Positions 17,398 to 64,000 of a DNA stretch of 64,000 nucleotides are shown one piece after another. The translations under genes and the position numbers were made by a program. The stretch is from assembly GCF_024171815.1 (NCBI RefSeq), contig NZ_JAMTCJ010000002.1:744001-808000 (forward strand), read 5' to 3'. The stretch is from Williamsia maris. GTDB taxonomy: Bacteria; Actinomycetota; Actinomycetes; Mycobacteriales; Mycobacteriaceae. Position 1 is the first letter of the stretch. The number at the start of each line of letters is the position of its first letter. The notes beneath the pieces are model-generated. The model was not told where the DNA came from and did not search any database. It worked only from the letters and a program-made list of their open reading frames with translations.

Positions 17398-17764
17398 GGG
17401 TCAGGCCTTCGGTCGGTTGAACTCCACTATCCGCCTGTCCGATTCGTCGCGCGGCGCGCACCCGCGGGAGATGCGAGCCACGTCACCACCCGCCGACCGT
17501 GTCGAAACCACCCGCCGACCGTGTCGAAACCACCCGCCGAGCGTGCCGAACCGACCCGCCGAGTGGGCCGAAACTGCCCGCCGACTGTGCCGAACCGACC
17601 CGCCGAACGTGCGCTCGAGCCATTCCCACCGTGGGGTGTTGTTCGCACGCTCCCGGCGCGATGCGAACGGCCCGATAGCGTGCCAACGTGAGCCGGCAGG
17701 CGTCAGCAACGGCACGTTCGACGCGTAATTAGGGCACGCTCGGCGGACGAGCGCAGCGAGTCCG
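17398..17764. other. intergenic region with tandem repeats, no gene
   Basis: The 367-bp gap between embB and the CtaG-type gene carries the 22-bp repeats at 17485-17612. Open frames cross it on both strands, but the 22-nt period makes each unit change frame, so they are repeat by-products. No hairpin resembling an embB terminator stood out. Confidence 0.7.
17485..17612. repeat. 22-bp tandem repeat array, nearly six copies
   Basis: Units begin at 17485, 17507, 17529, 17551 and 17573, with a partial sixth at 17595. The first two are identical; later ones diverge mainly at the first few bases and around the ACCGTG core. Consensus is approximately ACCACCCGCCGACCGTGTCGAA. The GCCGACxGTGxxGAA core resembles the repeat modules near 63.4-63.6 kb. 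Confidence 0.9.
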
Positions 17765-61770: not shown

Positions 61771-62778
61771 TCAGTCGATCGGAGCGACGGTCTCGGGGAG
61801 ACCGAACCGCGCGAAGTCACCGACCATGTCGTCGGAGAAGAACGCGATCGCATGGTCGACCTTGCCCTCGGCCGACAGCTCGAGCACCTGCAGTTGGAAC
61901 GGCCGATGGACGCCGTCCTCGCCCCGCATGTACAGCCCGAACGCCGGCTGGCCGTTGGCGGTGGTGGGCAGCAGGATCTGATCGCCCGCCTTCTCCGCCG
62001 GGCAGTTGCGACGGATGAGCGTGCCGATCTGCTCGCCGCCCTGGTACCAACCGGTGAACGGCGGCATCTCCCAGATCGACTTGTCGGTGAACATCGAGAC
62101 GATGGCGTCGACGTCGTAGTTCTGGAAGGCGGCGCAGTAGCGCTCCAACGTTTCTCGCTGGGTTGCCTCGTCCGGCTCGGACACCGAATCGCGCTCAGGA
62201 GCAACCAGTTTGACCTGCGTCCGCGCACGCTGCAGCAAGCTGTTCACCGTTGCGACGGTGAGGTCGAGGGTGTCGGCGACCTCGGCGGCGCGCCACTGCA
62301 GGACATCACGCAGGATCAGGATCGCGCGCTGACGTTCCGGCAGATGCTGCAGGGCCGCGATGAACGCCAATCGGATCGACTCGCGTGACCCGACCACGGC
62401 TGCGGGGTCGGCGGTGTCGGCCGGCGACGCGGAGTCGAGATCGGCGAAAGGCTCCAGCCACGGGACCTCGTGGTCCTGCAGGAGCGGGGCGGTCGGGTCG
62501 TAGGCGTCGCCGCCCAGCCCGGACGGCAGCGGGCGCTTCTTCTTGGTCTGCAACGCCGTGAGGCACGTGTTGGTGGCGATCTTGTGCAGCCATGTCCGCA
62601 CCGACGCACGCTGGTCGTATCCGGCGTACCCGCGCCAGGCGCGGATGTAGGTCTCCTGCACCAGGTCCTCGGCGTCGTGGTGCGACCCCATCATCCGGTA
62701 GCAGTGCGCCATGATCTCCCGGCGATACGGCTCGGTGATCGCGAGAAAATCGTCATCCGTCGTGGTCTGCACGGTCAT
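61771..62778 (-). CDS. ECF sigma factor with SnoaL-like C-terminal domain (SigG type)
   Basis: 335 aa: sigma region 2 (residues 15-80, YRREIMAHCYRMMGSHHDAEDLVQ), region 4 (about 135-190, LPERQRAILILRDVLQWRAAEVADTLDLTVATVNSLLQRAR) and a C-terminal SnoaL-like domain from about residue 205. This fusion belongs to the SigG/TIGR02960-like ECF group, whose extra domain replaces an anti-sigma factor as regulator in related groups. No anti-sigma gene is adjacent, consistent with that. Convergent with the lipoprotein gene across a shared terminator. Confidence 0.9.
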   Translation of the reverse strand: MTVQTTTDDDFLAITEPYRREIMAHCYRMMGSHHDAEDLVQETYIRAWRGYAGYDQRASVRTWLHKIATNTCLTALQTKKKRPLPSGLGGDAYDPTAPLLQDHEVPWLEPFADLDSASPADTADPAAVVGSRESIRLAFIAALQHLPERQRAILILRDVLQWRAAEVADTLDLTVATVNSLLQRARTQVKLVAPERDSVSEPDEATQRETLERYCAAFQNYDVDAIVSMFTDKSIWEMPPFTGWYQGGEQIGTLIRRNCPAEKAGDQILLPTTANGQPAFGLYMRGEDGVHRPFQLQVLELSAEGKVDHAIAFFSDDMVGDFARFGLPETVAPID

Positions 62779-62836
62779 GCGCAGAGATTACGGCAGAACC
62801 CGGACATCCGACCAGGGAAAGTGGTGGTCAGGACGT

Positions 62837-63391
62837 TCAGAATCCCGCACCGTCAGCGGTGTGTGAACGCCCCTCATCATCCGGTTCGGTCAGCGCTCTC
62901 GCGTACGCGGCGGCCGAACGCTGGTAGCGGGGTAGGTGAGGGATCAGGGCCTCGATCGCTGTTCGCACTGCCTCGTCCGGTCGGCCGGCGTCGCGCAGAG
63001 CCAACGCGAGAAAGATTGCACGCGCGTCCCCGATGGACGGGTCGGGCTCGGTCGCGCGCAGCATGGCCACCGCGTCGTCCACCCGACCGATGTTGCGAAG
63101 GGTGGATCCCTGTTGGATGTTCAGCTGCGCGAGCCGAGCTCCCCCCAGACCGTGTGCGCGTGCGGCCGCATACTCGACGGCGGCCTCCTCCTCGTACCCG
63201 CAGGAGTCGTACGCGCCACCCATCTCGAACCGGGCGTCGGGATCGTCGGGTGCACGCTCGGAGACGAGTCGTTGCATCCGTGCGACCGCGTCCTGCCGGT
63301 TATCGAGATCCACGGTGCGCCAGAACTCCTCGATCCGCGCCTCCCAGGTACCGACGACAGAATCTCGGGCTGGTTCGTCCACAGCGCTCAT
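62837..63391 (-). CDS. tetratricopeptide-repeat (TPR_5-like) protein
   Basis: 184 aa. Helical repeats from about residue 45 (DDPDARFEMGGAYDSCGYEEEAAVEY, LGGARLAQLNIQQGSTLRNIG, ARAIFLALALRDAGRPDEAVRT) make a small TPR scaffold for protein contacts. ATG 63391 is the start. The final codons, encoding about TADGAGF, derive from sequence (62845-62859) identical to a core of the repeat block at 63.5 kb. Upstream of the sigma gene on the same strand, 58 bp away, so it could be in the same transcript. Confidence 0.8.
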   Translation of the reverse strand: MSAVDEPARDSVVGTWEARIEEFWRTVDLDNRQDAVARMQRLVSERAPDDPDARFEMGGAYDSCGYEEEAAVEYAAARAHGLGGARLAQLNIQQGSTLRNIGRVDDAVAMLRATEPDPSIGDARAIFLALALRDAGRPDEAVRTAIEALIPHLPRYQRSAAAYARALTEPDDEGRSHTADGAGF

Positions 63392-63433
63392 GTTAGGGCG
63401 AGCCGCCGACGGTGCGGAAGCGAGCCGTCGAGC

Positions 63434-63567
63434 GACCGGGGTGCTGACTGTGTGGAAACACGCTTCGAGTGTGCTGACAGCGCCGGGCGAGACGACCGCA
63501 AAACAACGCACACTCGATGCGGGGCTTCCGCACCGTCAGCGGTTGTGAACTCGAACGACGCACGACG
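63434..63567. repeat. 134-bp direct repeat, copy A
   Basis: Matches copy B at 63688-63821 with 4 substitutions and no gap (offset 254 bp). Contains the core CCGCACCGTCAGCGG (63528-63542), also found in the 3' end of the TPR gene. Confidence 0.9.
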
Positions 63568-63687
63568 GAGAGCCGCCGACGGTGCGGAACCGCGTCATCG
63601 AGTGTGCGTTGTTCGATTCGCACGTCACGTCGTGCCGTGAGCACACTCGATGGCACGTTTCCACACAGTCGGCCGTGGGGTGCTGAT

Positions 63688-63821
63688 GACCGAGGTGCTG
63701 ACTGTGTGGAAACACGCTTCGAGTGTGCTGACAGCGCGGGGTGAGACGACCGCAAAACGACGCACACTCGATGCGGGGCTTCCGCACCGTCAGCGGTTGT
63801 GAACTCGAACGACGCACGACG
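63688..63821. repeat. 134-bp direct repeat, copy B
   Basis: Second copy of the element at 63434-63567, 130 of 134 bases identical. It ends 44 bp before the stop codon of the next minus-strand gene and may influence its transcript end. Confidence 0.9.
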
Positions 63822-63865
63822 ACGAAAGCCGCCGACGACACGTCATCGAAGCCGTGGTGCGCTGG

Positions 63866-64000
63866 TCAGATGATGGTGTGCAGCGGCGGTGGTGTTCCGT
63901 GCAGTACGTAGCGGCCCAGGTGTTGGTACTTCCAACGGACCGGATCGTGCAGCGTGTGGGTGCGCGCGTTGCGCCAGAAGTGGTGCAGGTTGAGGTCGTT
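63866..64000 (-). CDS. acyl-CoA dehydrogenase-like flavoprotein (DszC/SfnB type), C-terminal end only
   Basis: Only the last 44 codons are in the window; the gene starts beyond position 64000. They read LHHFWRNARTHTLHDPVRWKY and HLGRYVLHGTPPPLHTII, the hallmark tail of flavin-dependent monooxygenases with acyl-CoA dehydrogenase fold (DszC, SfnB and relatives), which act in desulfurisation or related oxidations. Family assignment of the tail is good, substrate unknown. Stop codon at 63866-63868. Confidence 0.75.
   Translation of the reverse strand, partial: NDLNLHHFWRNARTHTLHDPVRWKYQHLGRYVLHGTPPPLHTII

Follow-up and report, generated by a model that had tools for sequence, protein, structure and literature searches.

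MITEs are short, non-coding elements that carry long inverted terminal arms. For REP units, the accessible part of one source gives a length of 20-40 bp and, at one end, an unpaired tag that reads GTAG or CGTC (PMC3733652). In Mycobacterium tuberculosis, 10 HNH-domain 13E12 genes belong to the LexA regulon, for which the box is TCGAAC-N4-GTTCGA (accessible part of PMC4181829), and the REP13E12 regions, with 87 gene-conversion events, are described as sequences that 'lack defined biological function' (accessible part of PMC13061034). Here, we analysed a stretch of 64,000 nucleotides from Williamsia maris (the window), which contains an array of imperfect hairpins. The array belongs to a repeat family that at some other sites in Williamsia lies beside DUF222 genes, putatively of this same HNH kind, in a fixed orientation.

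The window array consists of three imperfect 102-bp hairpins in the order + - +, with half-arms at both edges (Table 1), and sits between co-directional genes. None of its neighbours, which encode TPR, sigma factor and acyl-CoA-dehydrogenase-like proteins, is a DUF222 gene, and the nearest DUF222 matches on the same contig are more than 90 kb off. The sequence-only reading had described the block as a 134-bp element present twice (130/134) with inverted copies of its pieces in between. We recovered this element as a direct repeat of 97% identity, together with inverted arm pairs of 41 nt (88%) and 33 nt (85%), but the natural repeat unit is the 102-bp hairpin and not the 134-mer. Each unit is composed of an outer arm, GCTGACTGTGTGGAAA, a variable part, an inner arm, TCGAGTGTGC, a loop of ~33 nt and the matching arms, which together make about 31 stem pairs. 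Units 1-3 score about 100 bits each under the covariance model R1, although these scores are not independent, as R1 was built from 49 sequences that include units 1 and 2, and unit 3 is approximately a copy of unit 1. The arm motif GACTGTGTGGAAA (at most two mismatches) occurs five times in the window versus 0.68 expected, and none of 100 shuffles reached five. The same core had been noticed in a neighbouring gene end and, weakly, at 17.5 kb. The first of these proved to be an exact 16-nt arm relic within the TPR gene, with nearly identical letters in G005, a fragmented Williamsia MAG, and the second a run of tandem half-arms followed by a diverged hairpin.

Table 1. Positions of the array, its components and related features; positions refer to the window unless a locus is named.
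Feature	Position	Strand	Remarks
Whole hairpin array	63397-63865	.	Occupies gap between acyl-CoA-dehydrogenase-like gene and TPR gene
Half unit reduced to one degenerate outer arm, reversed	63397-63432	-	Repeat families D3 and I4
Hairpin unit 1, 102 bp	63441-63542	+	Stem GCTGACTGTGTGGAAA..TCGAGTGTGC / GCACACTCGA..TTCCGCACCGTCAGC
Hairpin unit 2, inverted	63573-63675	-	
Hairpin unit 3	63695-63796	+	97% identity with unit 1 across 134-nt repeat
Partial outer arm GAAAGCCGCCGACG	63824-63837	-	Repeat family D5
134-nt direct repeat	63434-63567 and 63688-63821		
Inverted arms, 41 nt	63502-63542 / 63573-63613		
Inverted arms, 33 nt	63575-63607 / 63641-63673		
16-nt arm relic	62845-62860	+	Within TPR gene 3' end; exact core CCGCACCGTCAGCGGT
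TPR gene (TPR_5) adjoining array	62837-63391	-	Gene start at 63391
Acyl-CoA-dehydrogenase-like gene	End at 63866	-	
Diverged relatives	17488-17746	.	Tandem half-arms, ~22 bp period, then weak diverged hairpin
Weak diverged hairpin	17578-17746	-	E 6.8e-5
~60-bp hairpin of G017	L224:1000-1072 and 2737-2809; L231:2736-2808		

The repeat is dispersed throughout the 4.93-Mb genome of the window (G000). With the 134-bp query we obtained 51 matches at E<=1, of which 30 were full-length or nearly full-length units, a number that excludes chance. These 30 units group into 13 sites, which rules out a local tandem duplication and agrees with the earlier view that the block is not a simple duplication. 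A single occurrence without relatives in other strains had been named as the outcome that would point to such a duplication, and relatives were instead found in other Williamsia. At seven of the 13 sites there are arrays of two to five units whose orientation alternates, and successive same-direction units within these arrays are spaced about 242-281 bp apart. BLAST gave matches in six of the eight genus genomes, and the covariance model (E<=1e-4) in all eight, weakly in G001. When 251 family genomes were searched with the covariance model, 13 were matched, eight of them Williamsia; the five others, from 243 sampled family genomes outside the genus, gave weak, unconfirmed matches with best E values of 6.3e-7 to 4.2e-5. 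A scan of GTDB contigs for the exact arm pair, from which records of the window's own genome were possibly excluded, returned 18 stretches, every one titled Williamsia. Strong copies were found in Williamsia only, in the collections searched. This genus restriction goes beyond the sequence-only reading, as do the DUF222-HNH link and the convergent-gene location described below. A plasmid or phage origin was ruled out by the lack of any match to the repeat in the plasmid and phage collections and by a count of zero viral contigs with the arm pattern, and an integron attC or CRISPR-like array was considered and provisionally set aside. Array size differs between genomes: G003 carries three + - dimers with a 266-bp period (L097:1232-2000), and the orthologous G000 site has one dimer. 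Tandem half-arms with a ~26-29 bp period also lie outside the outermost hairpin at L139:5346-5435, L102:1030-1140 and L133:5735-5815, as if one arm were left or used per event.

The hairpin is real, and changes in its stem are compensated. Among 49 non-redundant units, 93.0% of cells are paired, both-side changes occur in 85 cells and the covariation score is 0.163, each of these values being reached by 0/500 shuffles. Ten pairs show a both-side change, a number matched by 7/500 shuffles, and the count of further pair types was not above the shuffles (203/500 reach it). Slid versions of the structure pair only 25-46% of cells, in a control that is biased in favour of the structure, which was written from the same 49 sequences. 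The sequence-only reading was right about long hairpins. A known RNA family was ruled out, as Rfam gave no match at the gathering score across 62700-64000 and returned sub-threshold microRNA hairpins only, the best at 57 bits with 268 needed.

In addition to gene-less arrays, the family includes units that adjoin a particular kind of gene. In W. herbipolensis ARP1 (G002), four inverted unit pairs ~1.7 kb apart flank a repeated ~1.9-kb segment, which encodes a 486-515-aa DUF222 protein (PF02720, E 1.8e-55; a further DUF222 match was at E 2.7e-58). The conserved core reads C-x4-C ... HH ... C-x2-H, with 34-36 of 36 sequences retaining the Cys/His and HH residues, and by motif inspection these proteins appear to be of the 13E12 HNH kind; Pfam and NCBIfam gave no HNH match for the DUF222 protein. 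The predicted structure has a mean pLDDT of 68, a PDB fold search with this model returned nothing at E<=0.001, and no solved relative found by sequence was convincing (best E 0.45). The C-terminal tail past the HNH core is highly variable among similar copies (L138, L139 and the W. herbipolensis DUF222 genes).

Full BLAST units occur in five genomes, at 45 sites in total. A DUF222 gene is present within 1.5 kb of 14 of these sites, compared with a mean of 0.66 and a maximum of 7 in 20,000 simulated runs. The 14 comprise three of 13 sites in G000, nine of 12 in W. herbipolensis and two of 10 in G003, and the 31 sites without a DUF222 gene include the single site of W. serinedens DSM 45037 (G004; 0/1) and all nine of G005 (0/9). 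In every one of the 14 cases, which are not all independent because two of G000 are orthologous with both of G003, the unit lies upstream in the orientation of the gene. Four of the 14, all in W. herbipolensis, have an inverted unit downstream as well. The W. herbipolensis upstream units form one subfamily and three of the four downstream units another. Unit and gene identity correlate across all 14 cases (r 0.93, driven by two clades), and within W. herbipolensis there is no correlation (r 0.12, p 0.21), which suggests exchange among copies. Two own-genome DUF222 copies, at 446k and 691k, share one identical stretch that begins with the hairpin, spans the promoter and continues into the first part of the gene; beyond the hairpin they have just one diverged half-arm in common, and within the gene they show patchy differences.

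The DUF222 genes also exist apart from the repeat. Williamsia genomes contain 6 to 28 of them, and several copies of the same DUF222 class, at 83-91% identity, occur without these hairpins in G001, G004 and G007, indicating that the gene can multiply independently of them. For the high-scoring group that we label class I, 19 loci in G001, G004, G006 and G007 and one in G003 gave no family unit (best E 0.64). Local fold scoring of 31 loci found the strongest hairpin among the unit-less ones at L158, a near-perfect 52-bp structure just past the 3' end of the gene and unrelated in sequence to the family. A motif within two mismatches of TCGAAC-N4-GTTCGA is found upstream of 31 of 35 class-I genes, L091 and L153 having been left out beforehand from 37 located genes, compared with 27 of 596 control windows. 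These LexA/SOS-box-like palindromes lie about 50-90 bp before the start codons (for example, L139:5577-5592), and we regard the box as a putative LexA-box-like promoter motif of the Williamsia DUF222 genes.

Comparison of orthologous sites reveals the insertion of a DUF222 element at a junction where six other species have none. At L086 of W. herbipolensis, a 1.9-kb hairpin-gene-hairpin unit lies between two convergent genes; in the counterparts of G000, G001, G003, G004, G005 and G007 the gene ends are ~5-30 bp apart with no insert, and G006 has another neighbour gene. A different convergent junction, at which the neighbour is presumably a phosphoglycerate-mutase-like gene, holds a DUF222 gene in both G000 and W. 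herbipolensis, in opposite orientations. At this junction G003 has a half-arm only, G001, G004, G006 and G007 have neither, and the G005 contig ends. For the second W. herbipolensis element (L087), the flanks are 66-68% identical in other genomes and the neighbours vary. Among the sites of G000, the 592k lone unit is absent from G003. The 836k array is replaced in G003 by a gene pair (L126:5480-7515), which we take to be TetR/MFS-like, and not by a clean empty site. The 691k unit has no counterpart in the same orientation in other genomes, and the 1077k and 321k sites gave no match among the loci compared, which cover part of the G003 and G005 sites. With respect to the window array, the far side of the TPR gene in G003 holds an array whose + units are 95-96% identical, and G005 has no array at this gene. 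Overall, nine of the 13 own-genome sites are matched by a unit at the corresponding position in one or more other species, indicating that most arrays are old; present-day mobility was not seen. A different-class DUF222 gene lies ~2-3 kb from a prolyl-oligopeptidase-like gene (L211-L218) in several other genomes (for example, G000 C1:1175674 and G003 C1:154219), and DUF222 genes belonging to several classes may be drawn to this region.

In our preferred reading, each hairpin is either an end of a DUF222-HNH element or a gene-less derivative of such an end, and the hairpins persist as terminator-like structures. The repeat would be the left end of a mobile unit, with both ends, inverted, present in some copies, and this unit would carry a putative DUF222-HNH nuclease gene of the 13E12 kind together with a LexA-box-like promoter motif. 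Arrays such as that of the window would be gene-less derivatives of the element ends, comparable to BIMEs beside RAYT genes. After DNA damage, the HNH protein might nick or cut hairpin or half-arm sequences, and the unit could then spread via recombination repair, favouring convergent-gene junctions, while arrays would expand and contract by whole + - dimers. Once placed, the hairpins would serve as 3'-end or terminator structures in RNA, often bidirectional ones, and would be kept because of this role. Old arrays, the 31 sites that lack DUF222 and the multiplication of DUF222 without hairpins in G001, G004 and G007 all count against the nuclease model. The preferred reading is further weakened by the missing target-site duplication at 592k, by the lack of a unit-gene correlation within W. 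herbipolensis, by the 26 of 30 loci in two other genera that have no shared hairpin, by the RNA fold energies and the terminator scan given below, by the shuffle-level count of further pair types and by the window array itself, which adjoins no DUF222 gene and lies between co-directional genes. Given the case against the nuclease model and the strongest rival, host 3'-end structures, we hold the chances for and against the combined reading to be balanced.

Its mobility component, in which a DUF222-HNH nuclease induced by DNA damage would mobilise a family of palindromic repeats in a REP/BIME-like manner, with HNH replacing HUH/Y1 and with other hairpins in other genera, is a tentative proposal that we consider possible. 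Two genomes from other genera bear on this point. G151 and G017, picked for their weak covariance-model matches, contribute 15 DUF222 loci each (30 of 37 DUF222 matches). A different hairpin of ~60 bp lies upstream of two of the 15 DUF222 genes in G017, and also downstream of one. Its three copies in a sample of 320 kb out of about 5.2 Mb, in stretches partly chosen around DUF222 genes, are all beside those two genes, with none in the reversed-sequence control. Two of the 15 loci in G151 share a related downstream hairpin, perhaps an ordinary terminator, and 26 of the 30 loci of both genomes have no hairpin common to loci. These observations hint at hairpin ends on DUF222 units outside Williamsia as well, and the G017 hairpins make the mobility-enzyme proposal slightly more probable than it was.

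The strongest rival, which we regard as rather unlikely, is that the hairpins belong to the host as 3'-end structures at convergent genes, where they would terminate transcription in both directions or stabilise mRNA, and that local duplication together with gene conversion has spread them. Convergent junctions would then be safe sites, and for this reason DUF222 elements would merely insert alongside the hairpins. This explanation, like the preferred reading, accords with the location of the repeat. Of the ten own-genome sites that lack DUF222, seven are flanked by convergent genes, three, including the window array, by co-directional genes and none by divergent genes, with gene orientation taken from simple ORF calls by third-position GC. 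The convergent enrichment has a p value of 0.001 on the background of the window (9 of 43 neighbouring gene pairs), 0.0027 on that of the window plus 12 own-genome stretches (34 of 142 pairs) and 0.0035 on a background of one in four. Conservation in place at nine of the 13 sites is likewise in line with a host function, as are the hairpins just beyond DUF222 3' ends at L158, L240 and L242, which resemble ordinary terminators.

Strand asymmetry and fold stability also accord with host 3'-end structures, the asymmetry being evidence for the preferred reading as well. G.T pairs account for 85 cells, 46 of them a single constant wobble, and A.C pairs for 24 cells, 19 of them at one register-shift column. 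The T fraction is 0.31 in the 8 bases past the unit versus 0.12 in the next 12, in a count of 72 units that includes near copies and is therefore not one of independent units. This T-rich tail is on the same strand as the G.T excess, so that one strand appears to be the folding one, and both features are in keeping with folding as RNA; the G.T excess could also arise from strand-biased C-to-T change in single-stranded DNA. The RNA folds are very stable (-51 to -60 kcal/mol), with energies for units 1-3 of -51.3, -60.2 and -53.8 kcal/mol on the presumed strand and -54.0, -58.2 and -53.1 kcal/mol on the opposite strand. The presumed strand is not consistently favoured by RNA energy in these three window units, and in DNA it is the more stable strand in all three. 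A terminator scan gave two small sites only, both on the opposite strand, and none at the T-rich tail of a unit. However, host 3'-end structures do not predict an upstream unit of the same orientation in 14 of 14 DUF222 cases, the inverted downstream partner units in four, the grouping of DUF222-linked units, or two own-genome DUF222 copies that are identical from hairpin to promoter with differing outer flanks.

We consider it improbable that the repeat is a MITE-like family mobilised by an unseen DNA transposase, with terminal inverted repeats of ~30 bp and the DUF222 gene as a passenger. The sequence-only reading had offered a MITE-like family as one possibility and proposed a check for target-site duplications. 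The long inverted arms that bound the unit match this description, and the 592k site provides an occupied/empty pair. No target-site duplication is visible at 592k, the single simple pair of this kind, which leaves membership of the MITE class unsupported. In W. serinedens, three units surround an unrelated 574-aa ORF (L089:1275-3174), which we take to resemble an FAD monooxygenase and which is possibly a passenger gene. This ORF and DUF222 are the ORFs found between inverted units, and no transposase gene was noticed there in the loci read. In addition, ordinary terminal inverted repeats would not be expected to show covariation in the stem or a conserved mismatch and wobble.

The other suggestion of the sequence-only reading, a REP/BIME-like family, stands as a description of dispersed, multi-copy, alternating arrays and fails at the REP-associated transposase. 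The proposed search for RayT/TnpA-REP (Y1_Tnp, PF01797) found it in 0/8 genus genomes, with a control search positive in five of 14 well-known genomes, which rules out a REP-RAYT system and leaves a layout that is BIME-like only. A true REP/BIME family that lost its RAYT gene from the genus would have alternating, extragenic arrays and dimer-wise copy changes like those observed, but with no Y1 transposase in any of the eight genomes, about 30 copies, a unit of 102 bp versus 20-40 bp for REPs (accessible part of PMC3733652) and a foot that carries neither GTAG nor CGTC as an unpaired tag in the aligned units, it is highly improbable.

The fixed partnership of DUF222 genes with a structured DNA repeat and a LexA-box-like motif provides a testable substrate and trigger. 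If the HNH-mobility reading is true, it would give a first handle on the role of the abundant 13E12/DUF222 genes of Actinobacteria, and it would demonstrate that BIME-like arrays can arise without RAYT transposases. The same hairpins may also, if the terminator part of the combined reading is true, be co-opted as 3'-end signals at convergent genes.

The literature within our coverage on DUF222, REP13E12/13E12, SOS/LexA and REP/RAYT/BIME, in which subscription journals are mostly missing, ties no hairpin repeat to DUF222/13E12 genes, and a search on REP in Williamsia found nothing. Comparison with described systems places the Williamsia repeat near several of them. Like MITEs, the unit is short and non-coding with terminal inverted arms (31 stem pairs), and it differs from them in its dimer arrays, in the lack of a target-site duplication at the one tested site and in having no cognate transposase in sight. 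The GTAG/CGTC palindromic repeats, as presented in the accessible part of PMC3733652, where the word stems 'actinobacter' and 'mycobacter' do not occur, are also palindromes that form dimers, and their CGTC class has no linked tyrosine transposase; compared with these, the Williamsia units have larger stems, no unpaired tag and a linked gene of another kind. At 102 bp and with CGTC solely inside the stem, the unit falls outside the 20-40 bp tagged form, and the W. herbipolensis units contain a GTAG in the extension on their gene-ward side. The REP/BIME-RAYT system, according to the accessible part of PMC2817692, likewise has dispersed extragenic hairpins of alternating orientation, a DNA-cutting-type gene between two inverted units in some copies and gene-less arrays elsewhere, whereas in Williamsia the linked gene is DUF222-HNH, the unit is ~102 bp, copies number ~30 and the foot has no GTAG. 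In the accessible parts of the sources on REP13E12/13E12 of Mycobacterium tuberculosis (PMC13061034, PMC4181829, PMC10589994), hairpin ends are not mentioned, and strong copies of the Williamsia hairpin were found in Williamsia only, but both systems have multi-copy DUF222-HNH genes, a LexA box and signs of exchange among copies.
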